In this document: positions 39,468-57,498 of the stretch, piece after piece
Position numbering within the stretch: position 1 is the first letter of the stretch
Layout of the letters: the number at the start of each line of letters is the position of its first letter
Assembly: GCF_019880635.1 (NCBI RefSeq)
Contig: NZ_JAINVX010000001.1
Span: forward strand, 1,086,501 to 1,150,500
DNA from: Hanstruepera marina
GTDB taxonomy: Bacteria > Bacteroidota > Bacteroidia > Flavobacteriales > Flavobacteriaceae
DNA length: 64,000 nt
Direction of reading: 5' to 3'
Position numbers and translations under genes: made by a program
Notes under the pieces: model-generated
Databases searched by the model: none
What the model was told of the DNA's origin: nothing
The model's input: only the letters and a program-made list of their open reading frames with translations

Positions 39468-41807
39468 TTAACGTACGAGTGCAAAATGCCCTCGAAATTC
39501 TTTACCATTAGGTAGAATGGCCAAATACCAATAATCTGCACTGGTCAGGTTCTGCCCATTTAGTTGGCCGTCCCAACCGTAATCATTGCCATCAATTTCC
39601 TTTAATAACTTTCCGTAGCGGTCAAAAATAAGCACACGCATTCCTGCATTTTTTTGGCTGACACCTAGTGGTTGCCAAGTATCGTTATCTCCATCTCCGT
39701 TTGGTGTAAAGAATTTAGGGAATCCTAAAATAGCAGTTTCTTCGGTAACAATACCGCAACCATTTTTATCTCTAACGTAAACGGTGTAAAAACCAGGAGG
39801 TAGAAAAGTAAAGCTATTGTTTTCTTGATACCTAACACCATCTAATGCGTACTCATAGTCACCTTCACCCTCTACTGTTATTGTTATTGAATTGTTATAA
39901 GAAGCTTCTTCAACAGCTATGTTTGTAATTATAGCTAGATTGGAAGCCTCAACCACGATAGATCGAGAGGTACTGCAACCTGACGGATGCATTACTGTTA
40001 CGGAATAGTTTCCCACCTCATTAATTGCAATTCGGGAGTTATTGATGTTTAGGCTAGTGCCATTTCTAAACCATTCATACGTAAAACTATTAGGGTTACC
40101 ATTTGTTACACCAGCATTTAAGTTTATGGTACTCGGGGAACTATTTAGACAGTAGAACAGGCTTTCATCGGGTTCTAATTCAGGTATAGGATTCACAACT
40201 AAATCAATGGTACTATAGGCGTAGCAGTTTCCATTATTGGTTATTTGAACCCATAAGGTTTGCTGATTTGGATTTGAGTTTTCAAACGATCCTGAAATTG
40301 GGTTTGCCTGATTAATTAAATCAGTTTCAGATTCATATAATGTAATACTTGATCCTGTTGGAACATTATTTTGAGATTGGATAAAACTACTTATTTCAGA
40401 AACATAGAATGTTATGTAACCATCGTTGTTATCGTCACAGGTTTCAAAATCGGGTAACGTAACCGAATTGTTTGAAATGTCTAATAGGACTTCTGCTATA
40501 GAGAAACAACCATTCCGGTTTTCAACTCTAGCAAAAACAGTTTGCAAAATGCTTGTATTAGAATAAGAATTAGAATTTGGAATTGGGTTATTGTTTTGAT
40601 TGGCATCAGTCAACAACTCAAAAAAGTTGACAACATTTAACGTGTTGTCTCCTAATGTTATGTCATTTACAGTGTCGAATAAATTATAGGTGGTGTAACC
40701 GTCCAAGTCTATATCGCAATTGATAAGTGTTGTATTTGAAACTGTTGGATCAGGTGAATACTCTATAACGACTTCACCATAAAACGTGCAATTTATGCCA
40801 TTGTATAGCTCTAAACTGTAAGTGCCTGGTGCACTCACTTGTAATGTCGGGTTTGTTTCACCTATTAGTTCAACTCCATCTTTAAACCATGTATAGGTTG
40901 CATTGGCAGAGCCAGGAACACTGCTGGTTAACGTATAAATATCGTTTTCGCAAAGCGCATTGTCGTTGGCAATTAATCTATTAGGTCCTAAATCTGTGGA
41001 TAATTGAAAACTACCAGCCTCTAAAAATACAGCAGAATCATAACGGTAGTTAATATGGTCTGCAATCACCAATTTTACATGATACGTAACATTGGGTAAA
41101 ACATTTGCAACGGCTCGTAATACTTTTGTTTGTCCATTAAAATTAATGGGAGCATTGGTATCATTCCAACTGCCAAAATAACTTTCGTTAATAGGGTCGC
41201 ATCCACTATTTCCAGGTATCCCAGAATGCACTGTAGTGACTTTAATAGGTGTTGTTGTGTCTGGAACTAACGCAATATTTTCATACTCTTGCTGATTGGT
41301 TGGCCGAATGAGAAATCCAAATAAATCAGAATATTGGCAGGTATTGCTATTACCTTCTTGATATTCCTCTGAAGCAAATACATACCTAAAACTTATTTGT
41401 GAAGCATAGTTAGACAGAAAATCGAATTCTATAATGGTTGCATTTAGTGTTTCCGATTCTTGAAGAACACGCTCTAAATCTTCGTCGCCAATCCAACCTG
41501 GTGCATCATCATCACTTAACGAGTCGTTTGGACCTTCAACATTTTGTGAGCGACCCGTACTTAAAACCAAACCATTTGCAAAAGGGAAATTAGAACCCGA
41601 AGCATCAAAATATCCATAACTTTCATCATTACCATTAAAGTCTCCGCCAACTACATTTGTGACTACAACATCTGTAATACAATCACTTCCTATTAAAATA
41701 TCTTCAATAAGCTGTTGTGGTGTATAGCTTTGGGCATCTACTTGGACATTTTGAGACCAAGCAAAAACTGTAGTAAAACAAGTTAGTAGTAATAGAGCTT
41801 TCTTCAT
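39468..41807 (-). CDS. T9SS type B surface protein, choice-of-anchor L domain
   Basis: 779 residues. The signal peptide ends FAWSQ. Residues of about 25-270 are a choice-of-anchor L domain (QLIEDILIGSDCITDV, then FANGLVLSTGR and FRYVFASEEYQEG). An Ig/PKD-like segment follows, then two copies of the approximately 95-residue Cys module (about 359-552), then a CTD linker (EYALDGVRYQENNSFTF). The C-terminus is the gliding-motility-associated type B sorting domain: PKFFTPNGDGDNDTWQP and FDRYGKLLKEIDGNDYGWDG. It is exported through T9SS to the surface. It shares layout with the 1,621-residue protein. A promoter box lies just upstream. Confidence 0.92.
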   Translation of the reverse strand: MKKALLLLTCFTTVFAWSQNVQVDAQSYTPQQLIEDILIGSDCITDVVVTNVVGGDFNGNDESYGYFDASGSNFPFANGLVLSTGRSQNVEGPNDSLSDDDAPGWIGDEDLERVLQESETLNATIIEFDFLSNYASQISFRYVFASEEYQEGNSNTCQYSDLFGFLIRPTNQQEYENIALVPDTTTPIKVTTVHSGIPGNSGCDPINESYFGSWNDTNAPINFNGQTKVLRAVANVLPNVTYHVKLVIADHINYRYDSAVFLEAGSFQLSTDLGPNRLIANDNALCENDIYTLTSSVPGSANATYTWFKDGVELIGETNPTLQVSAPGTYSLELYNGINCTFYGEVVIEYSPDPTVSNTTLINCDIDLDGYTTYNLFDTVNDITLGDNTLNVVNFFELLTDANQNNNPIPNSNSYSNTSILQTVFARVENRNGCFSIAEVLLDISNNSVTLPDFETCDDNNDGYITFYVSEISSFIQSQNNVPTGSSITLYESETDLINQANPISGSFENSNPNQQTLWVQITNNGNCYAYSTIDLVVNPIPELEPDESLFYCLNSSPSTINLNAGVTNGNPNSFTYEWFRNGTSLNINNSRIAINEVGNYSVTVMHPSGCSTSRSIVVEASNLAIITNIAVEEASYNNSITITVEGEGDYEYALDGVRYQENNSFTFLPPGFYTVYVRDKNGCGIVTEETAILGFPKFFTPNGDGDNDTWQPLGVSQKNAGMRVLIFDRYGKLLKEIDGNDYGWDGQLNGQNLTSADYWYLAILPNGKEFRGHFALVR

Positions 41808-41824
41808 GCAATACTATTGGAGTG

Positions 41825-41832
41825 CAAAGATA
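41825..41832 (-). promoter_or_regulatory. Promoter -7 box (TATCTTTG) for the 779-residue T9SS gene
   Basis: On the minus strand it reads TATCTTTG, 17 bp ahead of the ATG at 41807, so this gene has its own promoter. Confidence 0.6.
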
Positions 41833-41906
41833 AGGATAATACTATTTTATAAAATTTAAAATGTGGTTAATGTCTATGAGATTCTAAAATTGAACTTTTA
41901 ATTGAT

Positions 41907-42401
41907 TCAATCTTCTAAAAGATTTTTACCACTATAACTCATATAACTAACATCTTTAACAGTTCCTGCATACGAAGTTGACCAGATTATTAATTTGTTA
42001 TGTAATTCAGGATTTTCAATTAACATTTTTTCTGGTAGATTGGTTACAATATATATGCGTTTGTAAAGGCTTAATTCAATGTGTATTTCATAATTCGTTT
42101 TTCCTTTGTAATAATCTAAAGGATCGATATAACTAATTGAATCTTTGTTAACTAGTTTACCTAAATTGTATAAACTTATATAATCAAGAGTCTTATAATC
42201 TATTCTGAAAGAATAATTATCACTTTGAAATCTCTTATCATCACTTTTTGTGTCGAAATACGCTTTATAGCCTAATACATCGTGCCTGAAATTCTTATTA
42301 TTAATGAAAATGTAAATTTCATCAAATGCCGTTTTATAATTTTGTGCGTTTGAATCAACATTAATAATTAATAATAGTAGAAATATTATTGTACTTCTCA
42401 T
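41907..42401 (-). CDS. Exported protein of unknown function
   Basis: 164 residues with signal peptide (MRSTIIFLLLLIINVDSNAQ). No family recognised. The mature part is charged and rich in Tyr/Ile/Lys and has no T9SS sorting domain, no Cys module and no membrane helix. It stands alone between two T9SS type B genes, with about 80-100 bp on each side and no clear promoter box. Codon and residue use is AT-biased (many Lys, Ile, Asn, Tyr), unlike its neighbours' Thr/Asn/Asp-rich composition. Confidence 0.7.
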   Translation of the reverse strand: MRSTIIFLLLLIINVDSNAQNYKTAFDEIYIFINNKNFRHDVLGYKAYFDTKSDDKRFQSDNYSFRIDYKTLDYISLYNLGKLVNKDSISYIDPLDYYKGKTNYEIHIELSLYKRIYIVTNLPEKMLIENPELHNKLIIWSTSYAGTVKDVSYMSYSGKNLLED

Positions 42402-42483
42402 TTGTTTTACAAGTTGAACTTCTAAAATAGCAATTTAATTTTAAATATAAATTAGTGAGTAGAATTTAATCTTTCAACAGTAT

Positions 42484-45400
42484 TTAACGCTTTAACGTAA
42501 AATGTCGCCTGACTTCAAATTGTTTGTCTCCTTTTTTAACATTGGCGACAAACCAATAGTCGTTGGTTGGCATGGGTCTTCCGTTATATGAGCCATCCCA
42601 ACCTTGCGATGTATGCCTTAAGGTTTTGATAAGCTTACCATAACGGTCGTAAATATATACTATGGTTCCTACTAATTGATCTACTCCTGTAATGTGCCAG
42701 GTATCGTTTTGCCCATCGTTATTAGGTGTAAAAAATAAAGGCGCATCAATTATTACAATGTCTTTTATTGCCGATGCGCATCCGTTTAAATCGTAAACTT
42801 CAATAGTATGAGGACCTAAAGTCACATTATAAAACGTGTTTGATTCTTGAGGTGGTCCACCATCTAGAATATAAACATAGTTGCCAATACCACTAATGGT
42901 AACGGTTATATTATTAGGATCTGAAAAATCTATGGTTTCTGTGAATTCTATGGTAGCCTGTTCTGATTCAATGACGTTAAAAGTTGCTGTTGTGGTACAA
43001 CCATAAGCTGAAGTAACCGTAACCGAATAAGTACCTATTTGCGTGATTTCAATTTCAGGTGTTGTCTGGTTATTTGACCATAAATAGGAATCTGTGTCAA
43101 ATCCTGTTTCAGCAGAAACCACTAATGGTAAATTGTCTAGACAAACGGTTTGATCGGGTATGACTACCTCTGGTTTACGCTGAATCAAAGTTATGAAACT
43201 TGTTGTTGTAAAACAGCCTGTTGCATTGTTTTCTAAGCGCGCATAAATGGTTTGCTCATGAAACGCTTCGTAGTTTAAATCTATAATTGGATTGACACTA
43301 TCTGTTGCTTCTTCAAGTAATTCAAAATAAGAAACGGTATAATTATTAGTGTTTAATCCGCCTAAGACAAAAGGTGTTTGTTGCGATAGATTGAAAATTA
43401 ACAAGGCGTCATAATCATCATCACAGGCTTCCATGTTAGGCGCATTTCCAGCTGAAGGTAATGGATTAACTATTAAATTGAATGATGCAGTAGTAAAGCA
43501 ACCCGTTAGCGTGTTTTCGGCTCTAACAAAAATAGTATCACTATTTGATGTATAATTGTAGGTGCTATTTAATGGGTTTTGAGCGTTATCGGCATCAGAC
43601 TGTGAGCTGTAGAAGTTTATGTCTACATTTGTTTGGTTTCCAATTAATGCTTCAATAGTATTATCTAGTTCAAAACTATCAGAATCATTATCACAAGCTT
43701 CAAAATTTCCTATGGCATTAATGGTAGGAGGTAAGTTAACTATTAATTCTAAAGGTAAAGCAACATAACAGTTGGAAACTGTATTGGTAACACGAATATA
43801 AACGGTTTGTGGATTTGATGTGTTGTTATAATTGTTTGGATTCTGAATTGGGTTTGAATTGGCTTCTAAATCGTCTAAAGATTCATGGTAGCTAACTACA
43901 ATATCGTTTTGACGCACATCTAGTACCTCAATTTCTGATACTGTTAAATCAAAACCAACCGAACCATCATAATCAGTATCGCATTGCTCCATAGCCGATG
44001 CTTGGTTAACAAGCGGCACTTGAATGACGTTGAGTCCAAATTCTGCTATACCATGACAGTAGGTGCCATTTTCAACACGTGCATAAATTTGTTGTGGATT
44101 GGTTTGATTGGTAAAGTTTAATGGTATTTCGTTTTCTCCATTTTCGGCATCGTCTAGTGAGATGTAAAACGTAATGTTTAAGTTATCCGGACTACCTTGA
44201 GCCATGTCTTGTTCAATTCGCGATAAATCAAATTCTTCTTGACCGTCGTTACTAATATCATCACATAGAAACATATCTAATGGTGCATTGAAAACAGGAA
44301 TAGAGCCAACTTCAATAACAAATGAGTCTATTCCATAACAGTCTATATCACTTATATTTTCTACTCTGCAAAAAATAGTTTGCGGATTTGAAGTGTTTTG
44401 ATAGTTACTGTTTTTATCAATGCTATTTGTGCGATTGGCAGCATCGGTTTGTGTTTCAAAGTATAATACGCGTTTTCCACCCTGGCCATTTAAAATTTCG
44501 TTATCCTTATCAGAAAATAAGAAATCGGCAACTTGATTGCCATCGGTTTCGCAATTTCTAAAATTGGTAATAGTTGAAAATTCAGGTAAGGTATTGACGA
44601 TAATTTCAAATGATTCAATAGAAAAGCAACCTGTGGAGTCATTTTCTATTCTCGTATAAATGGTTTGTGTATTTGCTGAATATGTAGTTGTATTGATTAT
44701 AGCATTTAAGCTATTTTCGGCATCGGTAATTGATGTGTGAAACGATATGTTTAATCCAGAAGTATTGGTAACCATTTCTGATATTTTATTTTCTAGATTT
44801 ACCATAGTAAAAGCATCTTGATCATCATCACAAACTATAATATCTGTAGCTCGAGTAGTTGTTGGTGCTGGTAATACTTCGATTTCCAATGCTTCCACAT
44901 CATAACAGTTAGTAGCTGTATTTGTAACCCGAACATAAAGCGTTAAAGGATTTGTTGTATTGGTGTGAAATGGAGGCAATGGATTCACATCATCCAAAGC
45001 ATCATTTTCATTGAGATAATAACTGACATTGGCATTAGGTATTCCAGTGCTTACAGAGCTATCAAAAACACTTAATTCAATTGAAGTAAAGGTGTCATCA
45101 TCTGTATCACAATAAGTAATAGGGCTTAATGGTTGAATTATAGTAGCCTCATTAATAATCAAACTTATTTCTGAATCATAAATACAATCAGGATTTTGTA
45201 TTGAAATAAATAGTTGATGTGGCGAATTGGTTACCTCATATGGTATGGTTTGGTCAATGACATTTGTGTTGTTGTCACGATCATCTTCAGTTTCATAAAA
45301 ATATACAGTTACATCATTCAATCCGTTGATAATGGTGTTGGCAATATTTTCTAAATTGAATTCAACAATACCGTCATTAGACTCGTCATCGCATCTTGAA

Positions 45401-47349
45401 AAGTTTCTAATGTTAGTCGCTGTATCTAAAATATTAGTGTGAAGTACAATACTGGCGATTGAAGCACACCCTGTTACATTATCAACAACTCTAATGTAAA
45501 CGGTTTGAACATTTGGTGTTGTATTTGTATAGTTTTGGAAGTTTCCTATGGGATTATTTCCCGTTTCAGCATCTGTATAGGTTTCATGAAATGATGTGGA
45601 AATATTGGTTAAACCTTGTAAAACATCATCAATAACAGCTGATAGGTCAAAAACTTCAAAACCATCATTATCTTGTTCACAGGCGTTAATGGTTTGTGTT
45701 TCGTCATTAATATCTGGCGCATCAAGTACAGATATGGTTAATGTTGTTGTATTGATACATCCGGTTAGAATATCAGTAACACTAACGTAAAGCAATTCTG
45801 TTTGTGTTGTATTAACGTATGGGGTTGGCACTGGATTTGTGCCAGAATCGGCATCACCTTGAGTATAGTGGTAATTAACCGTGTAGTTGCTATTTCCGTT
45901 TGTGATTTCTGAATCTCTTACGGTTAAGTCTATTGTTGTTATGCCATCTGAAACGGTATCGTCACAAACCTCCAAGCGAGTTGGGGGTGTAATTGTTGGC
46001 GATGGATTGACTACTAAATTAAACGTAGAAAATGCTAAGCAACCGTTGTCAATATCTTCAACTCTTACATAAATGGTTTGAGGATTTGTGGAATTTTGAA
46101 TAGGTGATGTAATAGACGATGTGTCATTTTGGGCATCTGTTTGGTTTAAATGGTAGCTAATATTATAGTTTCCAGATGGTACTGCAGCTAAAACATCAGG
46201 ATCCGTTACAGATAAATCAAATGTTTCAATACCATCATTGCTACTATCATCGCAGATTTCATAATCAGGTATACTACCTGCTGATTGTTCGGAATTTAGA
46301 GTTATGTTAATGGTGTCGGTAATCTCACAAGTCGTATTGTTTATAGGAATAGAAACATTAACCGTATAGGTTCCTGAATTATTTACAGTTAGTGTAGGGT
46401 TATTTTCACCATTTATAATACTACCATTGTTAAACCATTCATAAGTAGCTAACGGGTTTTGAGTGTCACCGTTAAGTGTAATACTATTAGCACAGGTTGT
46501 AACATCAGGACCTAAATTGACAGAAGCATTAAAGCTATTTCCTTCAATAAAAACTGCAGAATCAAAGTTTTCATCGGTTTGATCGGCAATAACGAGTTTT
46601 ATATGGTACTGTACATTAGGCTGAATGTTTGCACTAGCTGTTAAAACTGTTGTTCTGCCGTTAAAGTTTGTGTCACCTAAATTATAGCCTTCAAAATACT
46701 GTTCGTTTTCTGCGTTACAAAATCCTACAATTTCTTCATGAATTGTATTGGTATTAACAGGAATGTTTGTGCCTGGAATTACGGCTATATTAACATAAGG
46801 GTCTTGTGTACCAGCTTCTTTTATTAAAAAGGCAAATCCATCGGAATATTCGCATGGATAGTTTGCATAATATTCTTCTGAAGCTAAAATATAATTGAAT
46901 TGTACTTGGTTGGATACAGATACAAAATCAAATTCTATTGATGTTGCATTTAGTGTATTACTAATACCTAATGCCGTTTCTAAATCAGGATCGGTTAACC
47001 AATTTGTTTCCCCATCATTTAAGGTGTTGGCATTTGTAGTGTTACCAGCAGCGTTTGCGCTACCTGTTGATAGCATTATTCCATTTTCAAAAGGAAAAGC
47101 AGAGGACGAACGTTCAAAATATCCATAACTGGCAATTTGATTAATACTGCCATTACTATTTGAAGTAATATTAGAAACTTCAACACAACCTAGAACTAGA
47201 TTATCTTCAATAAGTTGTTGAGCAGAGATGTTGCTATCTATTGTGATTTGCTGTGCTTGTATGTTAGTTTTAAAACAGAATAGGGCAACTAATAAATAGA
47301 AAGCAGTGGCGTAGGTAAAGGGATAGTTTACTTTTTCAAATTTTAACAA
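42484..47349 (-). CDS. Giant T9SS type B surface protein with eleven Cys modules
   Basis: 1,621 residues from a TTG start, with no ATG upstream in frame. Signal peptide ends NIQAQ. Residues of about 30-280 are a choice-of-anchor L domain (QLIEDNLVLGCVEV, VQFNYILASEEYYAN). An Ig/PKD-like segment (NGDTQNPLATYEWFNNGS) follows. Residues of about 360-1,400 are eleven tandem copies of a module of about 95 residues that opens CDD-x-(S/N)DG and has YYxSxxDA and NPQTIYVRVEN-like blocks. The end is the type B sorting domain (FFTPNNDGQNDTWHIT and ending RRHFTLKR). It is probably a long fibre-like surface protein, perhaps an adhesin. Confidence 0.92.
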   Translation of the reverse strand: MLKFEKVNYPFTYATAFYLLVALFCFKTNIQAQQITIDSNISAQQLIEDNLVLGCVEVSNITSNSNGSINQIASYGYFERSSSAFPFENGIMLSTGSANAAGNTTNANTLNDGETNWLTDPDLETALGISNTLNATSIEFDFVSVSNQVQFNYILASEEYYANYPCEYSDGFAFLIKEAGTQDPYVNIAVIPGTNIPVNTNTIHEEIVGFCNAENEQYFEGYNLGDTNFNGRTTVLTASANIQPNVQYHIKLVIADQTDENFDSAVFIEGNSFNASVNLGPDVTTCANSITLNGDTQNPLATYEWFNNGSIINGENNPTLTVNNSGTYTVNVSIPINNTTCEITDTINITLNSEQSAGSIPDYEICDDSSNDGIETFDLSVTDPDVLAAVPSGNYNISYHLNQTDAQNDTSSITSPIQNSTNPQTIYVRVEDIDNGCLAFSTFNLVVNPSPTITPPTRLEVCDDTVSDGITTIDLTVRDSEITNGNSNYTVNYHYTQGDADSGTNPVPTPYVNTTQTELLYVSVTDILTGCINTTTLTISVLDAPDINDETQTINACEQDNDGFEVFDLSAVIDDVLQGLTNISTSFHETYTDAETGNNPIGNFQNYTNTTPNVQTVYIRVVDNVTGCASIASIVLHTNILDTATNIRNFSRCDDESNDGIVEFNLENIANTIINGLNDVTVYFYETEDDRDNNTNVIDQTIPYEVTNSPHQLFISIQNPDCIYDSEISLIINEATIIQPLSPITYCDTDDDTFTSIELSVFDSSVSTGIPNANVSYYLNENDALDDVNPLPPFHTNTTNPLTLYVRVTNTATNCYDVEALEIEVLPAPTTTRATDIIVCDDDQDAFTMVNLENKISEMVTNTSGLNISFHTSITDAENSLNAIINTTTYSANTQTIYTRIENDSTGCFSIESFEIIVNTLPEFSTITNFRNCETDGNQVADFLFSDKDNEILNGQGGKRVLYFETQTDAANRTNSIDKNSNYQNTSNPQTIFCRVENISDIDCYGIDSFVIEVGSIPVFNAPLDMFLCDDISNDGQEEFDLSRIEQDMAQGSPDNLNITFYISLDDAENGENEIPLNFTNQTNPQQIYARVENGTYCHGIAEFGLNVIQVPLVNQASAMEQCDTDYDGSVGFDLTVSEIEVLDVRQNDIVVSYHESLDDLEANSNPIQNPNNYNNTSNPQTVYIRVTNTVSNCYVALPLELIVNLPPTINAIGNFEACDNDSDSFELDNTIEALIGNQTNVDINFYSSQSDADNAQNPLNSTYNYTSNSDTIFVRAENTLTGCFTTASFNLIVNPLPSAGNAPNMEACDDDYDALLIFNLSQQTPFVLGGLNTNNYTVSYFELLEEATDSVNPIIDLNYEAFHEQTIYARLENNATGCFTTTSFITLIQRKPEVVIPDQTVCLDNLPLVVSAETGFDTDSYLWSNNQTTPEIEITQIGTYSVTVTSAYGCTTTATFNVIESEQATIEFTETIDFSDPNNITVTISGIGNYVYILDGGPPQESNTFYNVTLGPHTIEVYDLNGCASAIKDIVIIDAPLFFTPNNDGQNDTWHITGVDQLVGTIVYIYDRYGKLIKTLRHTSQGWDGSYNGRPMPTNDYWFVANVKKGDKQFEVRRHFTLKR
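43130..46270 (-). repeat. Eleven tandem coding repeats of about 285 bp
   Basis: The protein-level modules of the 1,621-residue protein start at Cys-Asp-Asp blocks spaced about 95 residues apart. At DNA level the copies have diverged, so they are old duplications and not a recent expansion; no long exact repeat was noticed. Confidence 0.85.
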
Positions 47350-47438
47350 AGTCCTTATTTTAAGATTTGGGACTGAAAAATAAAGTTATAATGGATAAAA
47401 CGCAAAAAACATCGATAAAATACATAATATTTTAACAT

Positions 47439-49280
47439 TTAATAGTTTACATAAACCCAACCTGTCCAAGTTTTGTAGTTATTGTCGTTTGGGTACAAGA
47501 CATAAAAGTAAGTACCTACAGGTACCAATTTATCTAAATTGTTAATACCTCTATTTGTGCGGCCATACCATTTTAAGTTGTTGTTACCTTCAAAAATTAA
47601 GGTGCCGAACCTATTATAAATTAAGAGTTTATGATTTTCAAAAATGTCATATAAGCCTTGAATATTGAACCAATCGTTAAAACCATCGTCATTAGGCGTA
47701 AAAACTTCTGGAATATAAGGTGGGCAATTTTCCACGGTTAGGTCAAAAATATAATTATCAAAACATATCGTATTTTCTACTCGAATAAATACAGATTGTG
47801 GATTAGATCTATTGTCATACATTTCTGGAATACTAATAGCGTTATTTTGATTAAGCAAATCGTCATAAGATTCATAAAAAACCACATCATCAATAGAGTT
47901 GTATTCTATATGTTCCAATTGTTCAGTTAAATCAAATTCAGCTGTATCAAACCTCACATCACAAGCTAACAGCGGTTGTAACATAACTATTGGAGGTTCA
48001 GGAATAAGCTCCATATCCTGGTAAGTAGAATTGTTTAACTCATTTAACTCAATAACAATTCCGTTTCGAGTTCCATCGTCATCTACTGCTAGTTCTAAAA
48101 TAAAATTATCTGAAATGCTTTCAGGAATTGTAATACTAATACTTTGTGTTTCAGATCCATCAATAGGAATTGTATTTAATGTTTCAGATTGAGCAACTAG
48201 CTCATTGTTTGCGTAAAAAGCAATAGGCGTAAGAGCAGGTAAAACTTCAGTGCAATTAACATTGTAAACTGTATAGTCGCACAAAATATCCCTACTGGCA
48301 CATTCTAACGTGAAATCGTCTAATTGTACTGTGGCATCTGGTAGTTGACTGTTTAAAACAGTAATGATGTTATTGATTATAATTAAGTCGGCACGCAGAA
48401 TACCAAATTCGTCAAAATCTCCTGTTGTTAATTTTATTTCTACAGATGTGTCACCAATTTCGATATTGTTTTCAATATTATAAACATCTAAATCGGCATT
48501 GTAAAAGGTGGAACTATTTGTAAAGGAATTGGTTCCGTTAAAGGCGTTGTTTCCTAAATTTAATGGCGGATTAGAAATTAAGTTGCCATTTATTAAGAGG
48601 GATTCACCAAAGTCTAAAATAGCATCGCCTTCCCAAGCTAAAAAACCAATTTTGGCTCCAGTATTATCTAAAACATTAACATTGTCGAGCGATATAATTA
48701 ACTCTTGGACATTTCGATTAATGATGTCTAAACCTTGAAACAGATTTATTTGGTTTATAGGTAAATTGGTGTCTTCATAAATTATATAAATACTCCAACC
48801 TCCAAAATTTGTGCGGTTTTCGCAATAGCCTTCATTATTGTTTAATGTTTCAGAAATATCTAGGTCAGAGAATGTATATGTGCCATTACCCGTACTTAAA
48901 ATATAGTCAGTAATATCGGCATAGCACGAGAAATAATTAAGTAAACCCCAAGTTGCATCGTTGTAGTCTACAGTATAAATATTGTCTGCAACAAACTCAG
49001 TATTATTAAGTGTTATGGTATCATCGCCAGTACCCGAGCCTGCCCAATACAAGTATGCTGCAATAATTGTTCTATTACTAGCTAAATTTAAATCGGCACT
49101 GGATTCTGGTAAGATTTCACAAAAACTTCTATCGATATTGTTTTCGAATTGGTTAAGTGTATTGCCAATTGCCAAATAATCATAACGACCATTAAATTGC
49201 TGGAATAACTCTATTTCTTGGCAAAACGCTGTGTTGGATAAAACAACACATAAAACTATATAGATAACCTTACGATACAT
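47439..49280 (-). CDS. T9SS type B surface protein with diverged sorting domain
   Basis: 613 residues. Signal peptide ends TAFCQ. The N-terminal 260 residues (ASNRTIIAAYLYWAGSGTGD, then NYFSCYADITDYILSTGNG) resemble the exported DUF3344-like beta domain. A CARDB-like segment (about 320-430) and a single Cys module (about 438-515) follow. The end carries PEVFTPNDDGFNDWFNIQG and YNRFGTLIFEGN, so the sorting domain is type B, but it finishes TWTGWVYVNY and not HFTLKR as in its neighbours. It follows the 795-residue gene by 39 bp. Confidence 0.88.
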   Translation of the reverse strand: MYRKVIYIVLCVVLSNTAFCQEIELFQQFNGRYDYLAIGNTLNQFENNIDRSFCEILPESSADLNLASNRTIIAAYLYWAGSGTGDDTITLNNTEFVADNIYTVDYNDATWGLLNYFSCYADITDYILSTGNGTYTFSDLDISETLNNNEGYCENRTNFGGWSIYIIYEDTNLPINQINLFQGLDIINRNVQELIISLDNVNVLDNTGAKIGFLAWEGDAILDFGESLLINGNLISNPPLNLGNNAFNGTNSFTNSSTFYNADLDVYNIENNIEIGDTSVEIKLTTGDFDEFGILRADLIIINNIITVLNSQLPDATVQLDDFTLECASRDILCDYTVYNVNCTEVLPALTPIAFYANNELVAQSETLNTIPIDGSETQSISITIPESISDNFILELAVDDDGTRNGIVIELNELNNSTYQDMELIPEPPIVMLQPLLACDVRFDTAEFDLTEQLEHIEYNSIDDVVFYESYDDLLNQNNAISIPEMYDNRSNPQSVFIRVENTICFDNYIFDLTVENCPPYIPEVFTPNDDGFNDWFNIQGLYDIFENHKLLIYNRFGTLIFEGNNNLKWYGRTNRGINNLDKLVPVGTYFYVLYPNDNNYKTWTGWVYVNY

Positions 49281-49319
49281 TCAATAGAAGTTGTTGTATT
49301 AAATGTACGACATAAAAAC

Positions 49320-51707
49320 TTAACGTTTTAAGGTAAAGTGATCGCGATATGCTCTTCCATCTTCAAGAATTACTGAAAACCAGTAATCATCTGTTGGCAT
49401 GCGACTACCATTAAATGTTCCATCCCAACCTTGACTTGCAGGAGAAAGCGACTTTAACAGTTTACCATATCGATCAAAAATATATATTTTAGAATTAGGC
49501 TGAAACTGACCCGATATACCTTGTACTTGCCAATAATCGTTCTCGCCATCACCATTTGGTGTAAATATTTTAGGAAAACCAATGATTGAAAATGAGCCTT
49601 GGGCAATACCGCAGCCATTTTTATCCTGCACATAAGCTATGTGAATTCCCGGTTCTAGATCGGAAAAACTATTATTGTCTTGATAAGGTCCGTCACTATC
49701 ATCTACGGCATACTCATAATCTCCTATCCCTGAAGCATTTATTGTGGCTGAATTTCCACTTACAGGTATTGAGTTAATAGTAGCTATTCCTGAAGTGCTA
49801 ACAGTTACAACTCTTTCTGCAAAACAGCCATCAGGATTTTGAGGTGTAATAGTATTAATAGGTGTTATTCTTACAGTATATACACCTTGGGACTGAACTT
49901 CAATTTGATAAGTAGTTTCATTACTATCAAGCCACAAATAATTATAGTTGGATACACTATCCTCTAAAGAGCCCGCATCAATAAATATAGATGCATCAGG
50001 GTCATTTATACAGAAGAAAGCCGAATCGGTTTCTTCAATAATTGGACGTTCTGCAACCTGTAACTCCAATTCACTAATACTGTAGCAATCTCCTCTTATG
50101 CTATTTTGTAGTCGTACATAAATTATTTGAGGATTAGCTGTATTCGTGTAGGTGTTTACATTAATAATAGGATTAAAAAAGTTTTCAGCATCTGTGAAAT
50201 CTTCATAGAATGAAATTGCGATGGTATCATCGTCAATTATATCTTGGGGAATAGCAGAAATTAAATCAAATTCAGCTGTCCCATTAGCAACTTCACAACT
50301 CACTAAAGGCTCTAGATTAAGTTCTTCAGGTTGCTCCGAGATTATTAGGGTTCTATATACCGTTTGAATTTCACCTTCAGTATCAATTGAAATAGTTACC
50401 AAAAACTCACCAGTAGTGGTAAATATATGTGTAGGATTTAAATCGGTTGAGGTATTATTGCCTCCAGATGCAGGATCGCCAAAATCCCAATGAATACTAT
50501 CAATTATTGTTGAAGTATTTATGGTAAATTCAGTAGTATCTCCATAGCATGTGTTTCTAAATACATTGGTTGCAAAAAAATAGGATTGGATAAAAGGCGG
50601 TAAGCCAAAATGGCTACTATTACCACCAAGGTAAACGCCTTCAAACTCAAAATTAGAATCAGCACCACGCTCGTTAGGATTGGCAATAACAGATAAATAT
50701 TGGCCACCTTCTATGGCAATGTATAGTCTACCATCCAGTGCTTGTTGAACAGCTCCTAATTCTTCACCCACTTCACCAATAATTATATCTGAATTTATAA
50801 TGGCAGCCTGACTGTTTAATGTTAAATCGTATTGATGCACTTTTGATGTTTCAGAAGCTCTATCAATTTCAGTGACATATAACAAATTACTGTCTGGAGA
50901 GAACTCACATCCATATGGTCCAATATTATTTGAATTGTAGTTTGAAATTGTTATCGGATTGGATAAAACTCCAGTTGTAGCATCAAAATCAAAAATTTGC
51001 GTTTCACTCAAATCATAAGAGACAACACTTGCAATTTTTTCTCTATTAGGTGAAGCTTTTAAATAACCAATTGTATTATTGATGTCTCCAGTATGGGTTG
51101 AACCTACTGCAGAAACTACTGGTGTTGTACTTACTCCGGAGTCAGAAACAAGATAGGCTATATACTCGTTACTCATCCAACGGTGACTGATTACCCATAT
51201 GCTCCTTCCGTCTGAACTTTCAATAGCAGTGATTTTTTCTGTTGTTGGGTTAGCAAGCAAAACATTTTTATTGTTCGTTACGCCGCCTAAACCACCATCT
51301 AAAGTCATATTTACTTCAGAGTAACGCAATCCTCCAGCACCACCTCGGTCGTCCACCGTGAAGATGTAAAAAATATTGTCATCATCTGGTTTCGGTACGA
51401 TTAAAGCAGATTGGGTGCTGGATTTATCACCTTGTAATCCTGTTCCATTTAGCATGACAGCATTATTTTTATTCCAGACTGTAATGCCATCAGAATAGAA
51501 CAATAAATTTCCCAGTCTATCAGAAATGCTGGAACATCCTTCGGGAGTGTCAATTAAGGAACCATCAAAAGGGATAGGATATCCAAAGTTAAAGTTTAAT
51601 CCTGCTCGTACACCAAAAGCCCAATTAGCAGCCTGATTTTGGGCTGTTAGTGTTGCACTTGTTATAACTATAAATGCGATTAGTATATGTTTTAATCTTG
51701 TAGCCAA
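49320..51707 (-). CDS. T9SS type B surface protein with beta-propeller-like N-terminal half
   Basis: 795 residues from TTG 51707, which stands 4 bases after the upstream gene's stop. Signal peptide ends TLTAQ. Residues of about 25-370 (NWAFGVRAGLNFNFG, GNLLFYSDGITVWNKNN, QSALIVPKPDDDNIFYIF, then YGCEFSPDSNLLYVTE) form a propeller-like domain shared with the 1,101-residue gene at 54170. A PKD domain (about 385-455: IHWDFGDPASGG, PTHIFTTTGEF) and one Cys module follow. The end is a sorting domain PKIFTPNGDGENDYWQVQG. Confidence 0.88.
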   Translation of the reverse strand: MATRLKHILIAFIVITSATLTAQNQAANWAFGVRAGLNFNFGYPIPFDGSLIDTPEGCSSISDRLGNLLFYSDGITVWNKNNAVMLNGTGLQGDKSSTQSALIVPKPDDDNIFYIFTVDDRGGAGGLRYSEVNMTLDGGLGGVTNNKNVLLANPTTEKITAIESSDGRSIWVISHRWMSNEYIAYLVSDSGVSTTPVVSAVGSTHTGDINNTIGYLKASPNREKIASVVSYDLSETQIFDFDATTGVLSNPITISNYNSNNIGPYGCEFSPDSNLLYVTEIDRASETSKVHQYDLTLNSQAAIINSDIIIGEVGEELGAVQQALDGRLYIAIEGGQYLSVIANPNERGADSNFEFEGVYLGGNSSHFGLPPFIQSYFFATNVFRNTCYGDTTEFTINTSTIIDSIHWDFGDPASGGNNTSTDLNPTHIFTTTGEFLVTISIDTEGEIQTVYRTLIISEQPEELNLEPLVSCEVANGTAEFDLISAIPQDIIDDDTIAISFYEDFTDAENFFNPIINVNTYTNTANPQIIYVRLQNSIRGDCYSISELELQVAERPIIEETDSAFFCINDPDASIFIDAGSLEDSVSNYNYLWLDSNETTYQIEVQSQGVYTVRITPINTITPQNPDGCFAERVVTVSTSGIATINSIPVSGNSATINASGIGDYEYAVDDSDGPYQDNNSFSDLEPGIHIAYVQDKNGCGIAQGSFSIIGFPKIFTPNGDGENDYWQVQGISGQFQPNSKIYIFDRYGKLLKSLSPASQGWDGTFNGSRMPTDDYWFSVILEDGRAYRDHFTLKR

Positions 51708-51711
51708 AAAA

Positions 51712-54165
51712 TTATCGTTTTAGGGTGAAATGGTCTTTAACAACACGTCCATCCTGTAGGGTAGCCGCAAACCAATAGTCGCTAACGGGTAATGGTGTTC
51801 CGTTAATAGTGCCATCCCATCCAGGACCTAATGGGTTTATTTGTGTTAGTAATTTACCGTATCTATCAAAAATTAATATTTTAGAATTGGGGTGGAAAAT
51901 ATTTGAATTCCCTTTTATGTTCCAAAGGTCATTGTCGCCATCTCCATTAGGCGTAAATACTTTTGGGAAACCAATAACTGAAACTGAATAATCTATAATT
52001 CCGCAATTATTTTTTACATCTCTTATACTTAACGTGTAAATACCAGGACTAATATTGTTAAAACTATTTTCAGATTGATAAGGATATGCCAAACCAAACT
52101 CATTATAAAGCGCATATTCGTAATCGCCTTCACCAGACGTTATTACGGTTATAGAATTATTATCTGTTGCATCAACAACTTCCACCGATTCAATTGTTGC
52201 AATGTTAGAGGGTTCAACAGTTATGGTCCTTATAACGCTACAATTTGTAGTATTATTTGTTACTTGAACGCTATAAGTGCCAACCTCATTAACATTAATA
52301 GCATATGTAGTTTCATTTGTAGACCATAGATATGAATAGCTAGAAGGCGAAGTAATTTCACCAGAATCAATTGTTATCGTATTAGGATAAGTATTTAAAC
52401 AATAAAATAAGGTTTCTTCTGTATCAATATCAGGTAGGTTAAATACAAACAACTCAATTTCTGCAATGCCATAGCATTCATCAACATTTTCTACACGTGC
52501 AAAAATAACTTGTTGGTTAGGTATTGTATTGGTAAACAAAGGCGAAAGTGCATTGGTTTCTAATAGGGCATCATCTATAGTAGCATAATATGCTATAGTT
52601 GACCCAATTGGAGTACCATTTAGAATGTCAGCATTTGCTTGATTTAAATCGAATTGAAATAAACCATCTTCGGTTCCGTCAGTATCACACTCTATAATTT
52701 GAGTATTGTTAACTGTAGTACTACTAATTTGTAATTCTAATTCTGAAATACTAAAACAATCTGTATTGTCATCAACAACCCGAACATAAATTGTTTGAGG
52801 ATTCGATACACTTGTATACGAACTACTATTTGAAATAACATTAATGTCGTTTTGGGCGTCATTAAAACTCGTGTAGAACAGTGTTGATCTACCTGCAGTA
52901 TTTCCAGTAAGTGTGCCGTTTGAATTTGTGAGATTAAAAATGGAAGATGCTGTGTAGCTGCATTGAACTTGCACAGCATTAAACGCTTCGGGTGTTTCTA
53001 AAACGATGAGGTTTAATGTTCTAATACTAAAACAATTTACGTTTGCAGCATTTTCAATTCTAATGAAAACTTCTTCTAAATAAGGTGTTGTGTTGTGGTA
53101 ATAGTTTGGAAGCGGATCAAGATTAAATTCAGCATTTGAATACGACTCATGATACGTAATATTTAAGTCATCTGGATTTTGACCAACCAATATTTCTTCA
53201 TTTTTTGACTCAAGATCAAAAATAACTTGACCATTTGAATTGTCACCGTCGTTATAGTCATCACACAAAATATAATCTGATGGTGTAGGGTAGTTGGCCC
53301 CATCACCAACTATAAGGTTAAAGGGTATGATTTCAAAACAGCCTGTGTCATCATCAGTTATTTTAGCGTAAACTTCCTGTGGATTTGAAATGTTGGTGTA
53401 TAACCCTGTTATTTGATTGCTACCTATACTAGCATCAGTTTCTGATTCGTAGTAAGTAACTGAAACATTGGTTTGAGAACCGATAATCAAATCTGTATTT
53501 ACACTTAAATCAAAAGTAGTCATGAAATCATCAAAAGGAAATACGGCATCACATTCTGATAAATTTAATTCTAAAGATGAGGATGACTCATTTGTAGGAG
53601 GGCTTGCAAATTCTGCAGTACCTGTCCACTCCAAATTAAATGGGCTATTTCCAATTGGTCTATCAATAACAATAAAATAGGTATCTCCCGCAACAACATC
53701 AAGCCAGCTAACAAAGCTATTGCCATCAGGTCCAGGCCCTTCAGAAGTATCGGTTTCTGCACCGTTCATCCCTGTTAGATTCCAATGTAAACCAGCACCA
53801 AGAGGATTTGTTGTTGAACAACGAATAGCTGGGCTTAAATTGCCGCAATCTGGGTTTGGCCCAAAGACAAAAAAATCGTAGTCTTCATTTAGGTCAGTAC
53901 TTTGAGGTGTTAATGTGAATCCCAAAGTTCCGTCGGTTACAACGGTAACTTTTAACCACAAACTATTATGTTCTACACTACTACAGGTGTTTAAACCAAT
54001 GAATTCTTGAGTTCCAATGCCATTGACATCTAAATTAATATTTGAATCACCACATACTGTAATGGCATTAACACAATCTGTAGGTTGTTGAGCAACAAGA
54101 CAAAATTGGCTTAAGCAAAATGCGAAAGCCAAAATTAAATTTTGCCGTGTTACATGTAGTTTCAA
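51712..54165 (-). CDS. T9SS type B surface protein, four Cys modules
   Basis: 817 residues from TTG 54165, 4 bases after the preceding stop (at 54170). Signal peptide ends CLVAQQ. The N-terminal 190 residues (ADCVNAITVCGDSNIN-like block, then VVTDGTLGFTLTPQSTD and NEDYDFFVFGPNPDCG) form a pre-peptidase-like beta domain different from the other five. Four Cys modules (about 200-587), an Ig-like segment and the sorting domain PKVFTPNGDGDNDLWNIKG follow. The C-terminal 250 residues are close to those of the 1,101-residue neighbour. Confidence 0.9.
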   Translation of the reverse strand: MKLHVTRQNLILAFAFCLSQFCLVAQQPTDCVNAITVCGDSNINLDVNGIGTQEFIGLNTCSSVEHNSLWLKVTVVTDGTLGFTLTPQSTDLNEDYDFFVFGPNPDCGNLSPAIRCSTTNPLGAGLHWNLTGMNGAETDTSEGPGPDGNSFVSWLDVVAGDTYFIVIDRPIGNSPFNLEWTGTAEFASPPTNESSSSLELNLSECDAVFPFDDFMTTFDLSVNTDLIIGSQTNVSVTYYESETDASIGSNQITGLYTNISNPQEVYAKITDDDTGCFEIIPFNLIVGDGANYPTPSDYILCDDYNDGDNSNGQVIFDLESKNEEILVGQNPDDLNITYHESYSNAEFNLDPLPNYYHNTTPYLEEVFIRIENAANVNCFSIRTLNLIVLETPEAFNAVQVQCSYTASSIFNLTNSNGTLTGNTAGRSTLFYTSFNDAQNDINVISNSSSYTSVSNPQTIYVRVVDDNTDCFSISELELQISSTTVNNTQIIECDTDGTEDGLFQFDLNQANADILNGTPIGSTIAYYATIDDALLETNALSPLFTNTIPNQQVIFARVENVDECYGIAEIELFVFNLPDIDTEETLFYCLNTYPNTITIDSGEITSPSSYSYLWSTNETTYAINVNEVGTYSVQVTNNTTNCSVIRTITVEPSNIATIESVEVVDATDNNSITVITSGEGDYEYALYNEFGLAYPYQSENSFNNISPGIYTLSIRDVKNNCGIIDYSVSVIGFPKVFTPNGDGDNDLWNIKGNSNIFHPNSKILIFDRYGKLLTQINPLGPGWDGTINGTPLPVSDYWFAATLQDGRVVKDHFTLKR

Positions 54166-54169
54166 TTTG

Positions 54170-57100
54170 TTATCGTTTTAATGTGAAATGACTTCTGTAA
54201 AGTCGACCATCTTGAAGTTGAACCGTAAACCAGTAATCCGATACAGGCATTTGTTGACCATTAAACGTACCATCCCAACCATCACCAAGAGGATTTAGCT
54301 GTTTAAGTAATTTACCATATCGATCAAAAATTAAAATTTTTGTATTCGGTTGGAATTGCTGTGAAACACCTCTAACTTGCCAGGTATCATTATCACCATC
54401 TCCGTTTGGTGTGAAAAATTTAGGAAAACCAATTACAGAAACAATATCATCTACAATACCACAATTGTTTTTCACATCGCGTACACTTACTGTATATAAA
54501 CCAGGGAATACATTTTCAAAATAATTTGACGATTGATATGTGGCATACAGATGTCCATCTTGATCGTACAAAGCGTATTCATATTCACCTTCACCAGAAA
54601 CTATAACTGTAATGGTATTATTATCTGTAGCGTCAACAACTTCAATAGATTCAAATGTTGCAATATTGGAAGGTTCAATAGTGATGGATCTCGATTTGGT
54701 ACAACCGTGAATGTTCATAGCTGTTACCGTGTAAACACCAACTGCATTAATATCAATTTCATACGTTGTTTGCCCAGAAGACCAAGTATAGGTGTAATTA
54801 TTAGGCGAATCACCTACAATACCAGCATCAATTGAAATTGTATCAGGAAACGTGTTTAAACAATATAATAGTGTTTCGTCATCTTCTAATTGCGGCAATG
54901 GATTTATTGTTAACACGACTTCACCAATACCAAAACAAGCATTGTTATTCTCAACTCGAGAATAAATAGTTTGGTTATAGGGGTTTGTGTTGGTGTAGGG
55001 CGATGCTAATTCGTTTTGTTCCAGTAAAGCATCATTATAAGTTTCGTAGTATGTTACGGGGAATGTTATACCATTATCAGCTTGAATAGCTGCGGTAAAC
55101 TGGTCTAAATCAAACGTATTTATACCATCTTCAGAATCTAGTTCATCACAGACTTCTGGAGCTTGATAATCGTTGATTTGCGTTGTGCTTACCTCCAAAC
55201 TTAATTCGGCAATACTGTGGCATAATGTGGTGTCATCTATTACACGTGCAAATACAATTTGTGGATTAGCCGTATTAAAATAGGCATTGGCATTTACTGG
55301 ACTATTACTAGATTGAGCATCAGGGAAGGACTCGTAAAATTCTATAAATACGCCTGTTGCGTTGCCTGTAAGCGCGTCAAATGCTTCATTTAAGTTAAAC
55401 ACAGTAAAGCCATCAACTGTACCATCTTCATCACATTGTATTAATGAGGCATCAAAAGATGGTGGAATAGGATTAATAATGGCATCAAATGAGGTGGTGT
55501 CAAAACATTCGTCGTTATCTACATTTTCTACACGTACAAAAATCTCTTCTTGAAAAGGTGTTTGATTATAATATATCGATGGTAAAGCATTATCGCCAGT
55601 ATCGGCATCACCTTGAGATGAATGATAACTAACATTATATTCTAATGGATTTTGACCATTTAAAATATCATCATCAAAATCCTGTAAGTTTATGTTTATC
55701 TGTCCATTGGTGTTATCGCCATCTGCATCGTCATCACATAGTTCAAAAGTCGATACAGGATTTGCCAAAGGTGTATTGAAAACTTCTATGTCAAAAGTTA
55801 TGGTATCATAACAGTCTTCATTTCCATCATTGTGAATTCTAGCATATACCGTAGCAGGATTGGTGGTATTGGTATAAAGACCCGTTATTTCGTTTTCGTT
55901 ATTATCAGCATCAATTTGCGATTCAAAATAATGTACGCTATAAATGGTAGGATCTTGAGTGTCTAAAATTCCTGTATCTTGCTGGGTTAAATCAAAATTC
56001 CAAGAGCCGTCGTTATCATCGTCACAGATATTAAAATTCCCTACAGGATTGGCCACTGGAATGTCAAAATATGTTACAATAGCTTCACCTTCTAAATACT
56101 CACAGTCTCCATTATTTAAGTCTATTGTTAGTTCGTAGGTTCCAGCTTGCGTAATATCTAAATCGAAATCGGTTTCTGGCAATACAGTTCCATCAAAAGT
56201 CCATTCATAGGTAGCACCCGGAATATCATCGGCTGTTAAGGTATAGGTATCTCCAGTACACAATGGTAAGAATGTGGTATCCTGGCCGTTACGAATAATA
56301 TCAATTTTTTCAGTAAAAAATGAAGCGATAAAAGGTGGTAAGCCTTGCATGGAGTTAGCGCTTAATGCTACTGAATTGTTATCATAATTACAGGCAGCTC
56401 CTAATGCATTTGGATTATTAATAGTACTTAAAAACGGAGACCCAATATCATAAGTTTGGGCCATGGACCTATAAATTCTACCATCTGGACCTAATTGTAA
56501 AGCACTTCTGTATGCATTTCTTTGGTCAACTATAAATGCTGAAGCACTTATATCAGCTGCAGCTAAATTGTATTGGACTAAAATAGAAAAATGAGTATTA
56601 GGATCATGATCTTGTCCGTTTGCAAAAAAATCATTTGAGGCCGTAACATAGAGTACTTGGCTATCAGGTGAAAATTCCGCGCCATAGGGTTCGTTATTGT
56701 TAGTAGTAGGTACGGTTAAACGTTGCCTATTACTGGCAAAACCGGTGGTAACATCAAAATCAAACAGATATAACCCATTATCGGTATTGGCACAGGCTAA
56801 TTTGGTGCCATCAGGTGATAGCTTAAGATAGCCACGCGCATCGGTAATACCAATTCTGTCAAAATTAGATTTTACTGCTGTGGTGTTTATACCCGCATCT
56901 GTAACTTCAAAAGCGTGAAAGGTATCTAATGTAGAAATGGATGTGCCATTAAAGTCTGATAAACCAATAACCCATATAGCACCCGTTTCACAGTCCTTTA
57001 AAACGGCAGCAATTTTTTCAGCAGATTGCGAGAGTAGATTTTGATTTTTTAAGGTTACTTCGCCACGCCCCATATCCCTAGACATATCAACAACAGAATA

Positions 57101-57475
57101 TTTCATTCCGGTTCCAGTTGAATTTGCACCTACCGTAAAAATGTAATAAATATCAGGGTTGTTAGGTCGCGGGACCACAATAGCCGATTGGGTACTAGAA
57201 TCGTCACCTAATAACCCCGAACCATTACGCATAACCGTATGCACATTGGTGTAAACAGTAGTGCCATTTGTGTAGAACAATAAATTACCATTGTTATCTG
57301 AAATAGACGAGCAACCTTCTCGGGTGTTTAGTTGGCCGTCACTTAAAGGAATAATATTGTTGTTATTATCGAATCTAATTCCAGCATTTTCACCAAAATA
57401 CCAGTTGGCTGCTTGACGCTGACTATAGGTGCTGACAAAGCACAGGAAAAGTATATAATAGAGTGTTTTTTTCAT
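54170..57475 (-). CDS. T9SS type B surface protein with propeller-like domain and four Cys modules
   Basis: 1,101 residues from ATG 57475 (MKKTLYYILFLCFVSTYSQ is the signal peptide; a TTG at 57487 is less likely). Residues of about 20-390 match the propeller-like half of the 795-residue protein (NWYFGENAGIRFDNNN, GNLLFYTNGTTVYTN, QSAIVVPRPNNPDIYYIF). An Ig-like segment, four Cys modules (about 483-870), another Ig-like segment and the sorting domain PKFFTPNGDGDNDTWQVRG follow. First gene of the coupled T9SS run; a promoter box and an inverted repeat lie directly upstream. Confidence 0.92.
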   Translation of the reverse strand: MKKTLYYILFLCFVSTYSQRQAANWYFGENAGIRFDNNNNIIPLSDGQLNTREGCSSISDNNGNLLFYTNGTTVYTNVHTVMRNGSGLLGDDSSTQSAIVVPRPNNPDIYYIFTVGANSTGTGMKYSVVDMSRDMGRGEVTLKNQNLLSQSAEKIAAVLKDCETGAIWVIGLSDFNGTSISTLDTFHAFEVTDAGINTTAVKSNFDRIGITDARGYLKLSPDGTKLACANTDNGLYLFDFDVTTGFASNRQRLTVPTTNNNEPYGAEFSPDSQVLYVTASNDFFANGQDHDPNTHFSILVQYNLAAADISASAFIVDQRNAYRSALQLGPDGRIYRSMAQTYDIGSPFLSTINNPNALGAACNYDNNSVALSANSMQGLPPFIASFFTEKIDIIRNGQDTTFLPLCTGDTYTLTADDIPGATYEWTFDGTVLPETDFDLDITQAGTYELTIDLNNGDCEYLEGEAIVTYFDIPVANPVGNFNICDDDNDGSWNFDLTQQDTGILDTQDPTIYSVHYFESQIDADNNENEITGLYTNTTNPATVYARIHNDGNEDCYDTITFDIEVFNTPLANPVSTFELCDDDADGDNTNGQININLQDFDDDILNGQNPLEYNVSYHSSQGDADTGDNALPSIYYNQTPFQEEIFVRVENVDNDECFDTTSFDAIINPIPPSFDASLIQCDEDGTVDGFTVFNLNEAFDALTGNATGVFIEFYESFPDAQSSNSPVNANAYFNTANPQIVFARVIDDTTLCHSIAELSLEVSTTQINDYQAPEVCDELDSEDGINTFDLDQFTAAIQADNGITFPVTYYETYNDALLEQNELASPYTNTNPYNQTIYSRVENNNACFGIGEVVLTINPLPQLEDDETLLYCLNTFPDTISIDAGIVGDSPNNYTYTWSSGQTTYEIDINAVGVYTVTAMNIHGCTKSRSITIEPSNIATFESIEVVDATDNNTITVIVSGEGEYEYALYDQDGHLYATYQSSNYFENVFPGLYTVSVRDVKNNCGIVDDIVSVIGFPKFFTPNGDGDNDTWQVRGVSQQFQPNTKILIFDRYGKLLKQLNPLGDGWDGTFNGQQMPVSDYWFTVQLQDGRLYRSHFTLKR

Positions 57476-57476
57476 T

Positions 57477-57498
57477 TTTGATAGCAATAACTATCAAA
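57477..57498. promoter_or_regulatory. Inverted repeat upstream of the T9SS run
   Basis: The arms TTTGATAG (57477-57484) and CTATCAAA (57491-57498) are perfect complements 6 bp apart. It spans the predicted transcription start and part of the -7 box, so a repressor could bind here. It stops just 2 bp before the start codon at 57475. Confidence 0.4.

Follow-up and report, generated by a model that had tools for sequence, protein, structure and literature searches.

A conserved cluster of T9SS type B surface-protein genes in Hanstruepera marina, its uncatalogued two-cysteine module and a candidate remote carrier

The six-gene cluster, its module, heads and tails

We examined a stretch of 64,000 nucleotides of the Hanstruepera marina genome (hereafter the window; contig NZ_JAINVX010000001.1, positions 1,086,501 to 1,150,500), in which a preliminary description, made from the sequence alone, had noted an array of six type IX secretion system (T9SS) type B surface proteins built from one cysteine-bearing module. 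All six open reading frames (ORFs) were present on the minus strand as claimed and are named here Proteins A to F (Table 1); only the start of Protein F was moved, to 57487, the 57475 given earlier being an internal ATG. Each protein scored above the cut-offs of TIGR04131 and PF13585, which makes all six T9SS type B proteins, with TIGR04131 values from 39.8 bits (Protein C) to 121 bits against a cut-off of 35 (Protein A, 105 bits), and hydrophobic N-termini were seen in the translations. Taken as a whole, the adhesin cluster is real, conserved and rich in domains, and its kind is known; its module is uncatalogued, the stalk of 11 modules in Protein B is unusually constant, and the comparisons below predict a candidate for the missing partner.

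Starting from eight modules of Protein B, a profile search detected the module of about 95 residues 23 times in the six proteins (2, 11, 1, 1, 4 and 4 copies in A to F), exactly the counts reported before; 23 domains were found in the first round and in each of four later rounds. After iteration every module had a domain E-value of 1.2e-21 or better, which chance does not explain, although the profile behind these values includes the modules themselves. In the 23-row alignment the second cysteine was invariant and the first stood at its column in 22 rows; 21 rows had exactly two cysteines and 2 had three. The preliminary description could not name the module, and no name emerged here either: no Pfam-A or NCBIfam model matched it over cut-off, with only sub-cut-off overlaps at E-values up to 1, and the profile gave no convincing match among the Protein Data Bank (PDB) sequences.

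AlphaFold2 modelling of one module with the 23-row alignment returned a confident small domain (predicted local distance difference test, pLDDT, 93.0; predicted template modelling score, pTM, 0.82). The best Foldseek match of this model in the PDB had an E-value of 0.033, with none at 0.001 or better, while VIA placed immunoglobulin (Ig)-like and GhpA domains first with Z scores of 5.5 or less (the top one over 78 residues), values within the range of common arrangements. According to the model, the module is a small, probably disulfide-stapled sandwich that is loosely Ig/PKD-like. GhpA, the grappling hook protein of Aureispira, lies on the surface of a different member of the phylum, and several of its domains were among the best module matches (VIA Z 5.2-5.5, 12-16% identity); we rejected kinship with it, given a Z of 5.5 at most and no GhpA chain in the PDB sequence search at E-values up to 10. 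A calcium-loop reading was also dropped, since a crude D-x-D-x-D-G-type pattern fitted 10 of the 23 modules, too few for such a claim.

The profile search of flavobacterial genomes that the preliminary description had proposed found modules in most genomes sampled from the family (106 of 120) and in 37 of 60 relatives; across the phylum 22 of 148 genomes had them, 15 of these 22 within the same family (each sample includes the own genome). The own genome contained 37 modules, 14 of them outside the window, spread over three further type B proteins and two that PF13585 does not match (G000:C4:997969-1000320 and G000:C5:461294-462799; G000 stands for the own genome and C for its contigs). Another genome (G060:C47) gave 249 module candidates at first look and a module-bearing open frame of 5164 amino acids (aa). 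A Maribacter litopenaei protein (G148:C1:2333156-2338069) contained a long tandem array whose repeat units, 207 bases long, have a weak match to the linker domain.

The N-terminal heads differed between the proteins. The choice-of-anchor L assignment of the heads of A and B was borne out by NF038133 (157 and 156 bits, cut-off 27 for both). The term 'choice-of-anchor L', alone or together with 'T9SS type B sorting', was not found in the literature searched. The propeller-like heads of D and F received low-confidence support: the model reached a pLDDT of 54, and 50 Foldseek matches were listed at an E-value of 1.2e-5 or better, which we take to be essentially all propeller-containing proteins. 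The 'pre-peptidase-like' label of the head of E was not supported by Pfam, NCBIfam or PDB sequence searches, with no family match in the first two, and the 'DUF3344-like' head of C had no DUF3344 match in Pfam at E-values up to 1; against PDB sequences nothing convincing was found for the heads of C and E (best E-values 0.77 and 0.046, respectively). The PKD-like domain of D matched PF18911 with 28.7 bits (cut-off 27), and a linker stretch of A lay just above the PF06832 BiPBP_C cut-off (28.1 against 26.8 bits).

The linker and sorting domains had been called near-identical. They are related, but the C-terminal parts of about 235 aa of A, B, D, E and F were 38-66% identical and are therefore not near-identical. 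Among 18 CHU_C matches in the own genome 2 were below cut-off and were left out of the type B set, so that 16 tails passed PF13585 and counted as type B. By similarity, nine orphan tails formed one class (class 1), ending in HF[TAS]L[KV]R: those of A, B, D, E and F and four more on contig C4 (at 334k, 624k, 685k and 1043k). The tail of Protein C, ending in GWVYVNY, belonged to a separate class; its nearest tails were those at C4:286k and C4:524k, and it and the tail at C4:286k were mutually closest. The carrier-linked type B tails were distinct.

Table 1. Genes of the cluster and its surroundings in the window (positions are those of the window).
Feature	Coordinates	Strand	Description
Protein A	39468-41807	-	779 aa; choice-of-anchor L head; 2 modules (40182-40721); class-1 tail ..HFALVR
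Protein B	42484-47349	-	1621 aa; choice-of-anchor L head; 11 modules (43171-46254); class-1 tail ..HFTLKR
Protein C	47439-49280	-	613 aa; unnamed head; 1 module (47721-47966); type B tail ..GWVYVNY
Protein D	49320-51707	-	795 aa; propeller-like head; PKD-like domain; 1 module (50043-50297); class-1 tail
Protein E	51712-54165	-	817 aa; unnamed head; 4 modules (52432-53553); class-1 tail
Protein F	54170-57487	-	1105 aa; propeller-like head; 4 modules (54893-56026); class-1 tail (last 235 aa: 54173-54877)
ABC-2 permease	57503-58327	-	directly upstream of cluster; PF12679 50.3 bits
ABC transporter ATPase	58346-59242	-	adjoins permease; below cut-off of each of 25 NCBIfam models listed, GldA included
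uvrB	37446-39449	-	downstream of cluster; TIGR00631 1011.5 bits
164-aa ORF	41907-42401	-	between A and B; outside module set; no known family

Conservation of the cluster and of its module numbers

Of the 53 complete B-class proteins that carry five or more modules, 50, from 45 genomes, have exactly 11. This count leaves out an A-like protein with 2 modules (G069) and the proteins cut by a fetched end, and includes a 17-module protein split over two loci that was added by hand. The exceptions had 17 modules (this paralogue, in G013), 9 modules (G017) and 7 modules (G070), and one more 11-module case (G255) lay outside the 53. A search with the B head and no length filter matched 77 of the 120 family genomes; the best 49 rows led to 46 open frames of 1606-1664 aa and to three others, of 504 aa (a fragment near a contig end), 2189 aa and 1445 aa.

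The module positions of Protein B were orthologous: across 45 proteins of 11 modules, all from outside the window's genus, 482 of 495 modules had their best match in the window module at the same position (chance, 1 in 11). The nine modules of G017 aligned to positions 1-9, and the seven of G070 showed no such order. Within Protein B the modules were 33% identical as protein, and their codon-aligned DNA was 48% identical on average and 59% at most, while same-position modules of other genera had a mean protein identity of 50%. The array thus predates these genera. Module number was likewise mostly fixed per head class in complete proteins, the window included: 2 in 28 of 28 A-class, 4 in 13 of 13 E-class and 1 in 25 of 27 C-class proteins. 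In propeller-headed proteins it varied (1, 2, 4, 6 or 9).

Relatives had the head classes in a similar order, with some missing, beside the ABC ATPase/permease pair and uvrB. Fifty fetched loci with a B-class gene (one of them A-like) contained the ABC permease in 39 cases, uvrB in 33, at least one of the two in 46 and both in 26, many of these loci being shortened by the fetch or a contig end and several ending before uvrB. The ABC genes were not identified as gliding genes: GldA was unsupported for the ATPase (171.5 bits against a GldA cut-off of 402.6), as was GldF for the permease, which had no NCBIfam match. No homologue of the 164-aa ORF was labelled in the cluster loci of the relatives.

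As judged from these comparisons, the cluster is an old, ordered locus and not a shuffling one. The earlier picture of a mix-and-match surface locus holds in so far as differing heads sit on a common module; read as a dynamic process it misleads, the module number being mostly fixed per head class and the B modules orthologous by position.

A PorP/SprF-type carrier gene outside the window

The preliminary description had found no PorP/SprF-type partner gene in the window. We confirmed this for the window, though not for the genome, which had six PorP/SprF matches, none of them in the window. Five of the six adjoin a type B gene and the remaining one is an orphan on contig C8 (G000:C8:223374-224372; PF11751 230.2 bits; TIGR03519 182.7 bits, cut-off 90.55). 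A cluster with an adjacent PorP gene in relatives, which would have spoken for loss by rearrangement here, was found neither in 19 loci plus kb 33-62 of the window nor in 40 others.

Orthologues of the C8 carrier were distinct from paralogues, with at least 42% identity against at most 38%, and in a second set at least 218 bits against at most 189. Where an orthologue had a type B neighbour, that neighbour had the tail class of the window in 28 of 28 loci (7 from 30 loci and 21 from 60 further loci). The paralogous carriers (34 loci) had a type B neighbour in 29 cases, only 2 of which were of this class, both in one genome of another family (28/28 against 2/29, Fisher p 3e-14, a value that ignores relatedness of the genomes by descent). 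Tail class was taken from the best BLAST match to the tails of the own genome; several neighbours were short contig-end pieces, one match was weak (G117, 47 bits) and one neighbour was separated from its carrier by a gap of about 1.6 kb (G095). A carrier beside a module gene in G146 was left out of this scoring. One locus (L181, in G006; 223 bits), with neither type B neighbour nor the cysteine motif described below, was fetched as a paralogue and is an orthologue by the later bit cut-off; counting it as such gives 7 of 31 loci with a neighbour and 84 of 91 carriers with the motif, and leaves 2/29 unchanged. The neighbours of the window's tail class were often module-bearing, as single genes, in many relatives.

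Modules and carrier orthologue also occurred together: both were present in 98 of the 120 family genomes, modules only in 8, the carrier only in 2 and neither in 12 (p 9e-10, with an orthologue defined by 200 bits or more; this Fisher value, too, takes no account of descent).

The C8 carrier ends in ..RYHCNCPAVN, with a C-x-C motif (HCNCP). We found C-x-C within the last 30 residues in 84 of 90 orthologues of the family samples and in all 79 named ones that gave an ORF of fitting size (from 80 named loci). The periplasmic C-x-C of SprF bonds to Cys343 of GldK, a residue called invariant in GldK/PorK (PMC12635249). GldK of the own genome has cysteines at 19, 281 and 337, and by its spacing Cys 337 would be the counterpart of Cys343; GldJ was present as well, passing its equivalog model with 950.7 bits. 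C-x-C is absent from two other own carriers (C4:524k and C4:1613k), which adjoin OmpA-family genes, an arrangement for which static anchoring has been proposed (PMC12618676).

Some further carrier loci are recorded here as side observations. At ten loci (L329, L330, L335, L336, L346, L349, L350, L355, L359 and L371) the sequence breaks off at most about 160 bases upstream of the carrier, an effect that a repetitive module gene at this place would be expected to have. In a genome of another family of the order (L172, G038) a type B gene with 7 modules sits just upstream of a PorP/SprF gene that is divergent and lacks C-x-C; the two may form a substrate/carrier pair of their own. Contig C10 of the own genome has two tandem units of a type B gene and a carrier (G000:C10:3216-4247 and C10:12545-13576, L040) with identical 235-aa tails and with carriers of equal length and ends that have C-x-C, possibly a recent duplication or an assembly effect. 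The same repeat stretch occurs in proteins at the right end of contig C4 (L038) and the left end of C10 (L040), and a repeat-rich surface gene probably joins the two contigs.

A proposed surface-adhesin system and its alternatives

The link between tail class and carrier in relatives suggests that five of the six proteins have one outer-membrane carrier in common, encoded elsewhere in the genome, and this carrier may couple the adhesins to the gliding track. The explanation we favour, with somewhat better than even confidence, is that the cluster encodes T9SS type B surface adhesins, of which A, B, D, E and F use a single remote, track-coupled carrier. Each protein would consist of a head that differs between proteins, a stalk of disulfide-bearing, Ig-like modules in mostly fixed number and a C-terminal export signal of about 235 residues. 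We infer that A, B, D, E and F cross the outer membrane and are taken up in trans by the dedicated carrier encoded on C8, whose C-x-C tail probably bonds to GldK; the heads would thereby be presented on, and could be dragged by, the moving track. Protein C, with its other tail, probably uses another carrier.

The proposed arrangement resembles SprB/SprF of Flavobacterium johnsoniae in its type B export tail, in a PorP/SprF-family carrier with a C-x-C tail and in the presence of GldK and GldJ. It differs in that the carrier gene lies at a distance from the cluster and seems to handle several substrates, and in the much smaller size of its proteins (613-1621 aa), SprB being above 6000 aa long. 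How 'orphan' type B substrates are exported was described in 2025 in F. johnsoniae, where three such proteins are served by one orphan SprF-like shuttle, Fjoh_1677 (PMC12618676); the system proposed here is similar in having several orphan substrates and one orphan carrier and unlike it in that the six substrates are clustered and have a common module. In the PorP-PorE-PG1035 complex of Porphyromonas gingivalis a type B protein is likewise bound to a PorP-family barrel (PMC9143113), whereas none of the four ORFs tested beside the C8 carrier, which gave NifU, VWA, histidine-kinase and DUF1304 matches, matches OmpA. PMC12635249 makes no mention of Fjoh_1677, and 'disulf' does not occur in the main text of PMC12618676.

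Several observations weigh against the favoured explanation. Within the genus the carrier had no type B neighbour (own genome, and 1.5-kb flanks in four genus mates), and none of 80 named loci (the best 80 of 561, mostly from the Zobellia/Maribacter clade) had a flanking type B or module gene, so the pairing in H. marina rests on other relatives. Among the 60 further carrier loci 31 had no type B neighbour in the fetched stretch, and 8 of the loci end within 130 bases upstream. Of the eight genomes with modules and no carrier orthologue, four are 66-84% complete and four 91-99%, the latter being G062 (91, with a borderline match of 189 bits), G081 (99), G118 (99) and G126 (95). The C-x-C motif was missing from 6 of 90 orthologues and from those of G006 (L181) and G146; among the 34 loci fetched as paralogues 22 had it as well, and it therefore marks possible track coupling and not this system alone. 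Finally, in F. johnsoniae SprB fused to the tail of Fjoh_1123, one of the three orphan substrates, did travel along the track in 3% of cells, a point in favour of the explanation, but most foci with this tail were static (PMC12618676).

These static foci are an argument for regarding the proteins as static surface adhesins or biofilm proteins, exported by the same carrier but fixed in the outer membrane and not moving with the gliding track, and other type B proteins, such as Fjoh_3952, are static too (PMC12618676). We nevertheless consider such an outcome rather doubtful, as the twin-cysteine tail is kept in most of the carrier orthologues and two own carriers without it adjoin OmpA-family genes, the arrangement linked with static anchoring. 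Handling of each protein by any available carrier, with no dedicated partner, appears improbable: crosstalk between type B tails and shuttles has been published for Fjoh_3952 (PMC12618676) and would accommodate the eight module-bearing genomes that lack the carrier orthologue, but it does not fit the class-specific neighbours or the co-occurrence of modules and carrier.

The alternatives that concern the module arrays are of very different weight. A recently shuffled, mix-and-match locus for antigen variation, to which the different heads on one common module might point, is highly improbable against head-module pairings and copy numbers that are mostly constant over many genera and B modules that are orthologous by position. 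The 11-module stalk could be a functional ruler; this is a possibility and not a result, because the low DNA similarity between modules may alone have frozen their number. We regard as evenly poised the view that the number is fixed passively, the modules of B having diverged too far for recombination to alter it; their low codon-aligned identity speaks for it, while the existence of other numbers (in G017, in the G013 paralogue and in propeller-headed proteins) indicates that these can be reached.

The module is a common domain not covered by Pfam or NCBIfam. The stalk of 11 modules is a long array for bacteria, with a copy number that is constant over about 40 genera. More speculatively, many flavobacteria might possess a second gliding-adhesin kit beside SprB, in which one disulfide-coupled carrier acting in trans would load a conserved panel of heads onto the moving track and an 11-module spacer of conserved length would set the distance of one head from the cell. 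From an association within a single bacterial family, a dedicated carrier is predicted for an entire class of surface proteins that the tail defines. This prediction joins two findings of 2025, the shared shuttle (PMC12618676) and the disulfide coupling to the track (PMC12635249), and raises the question of whether a single C-x-C carrier places many different heads on the gliding track.

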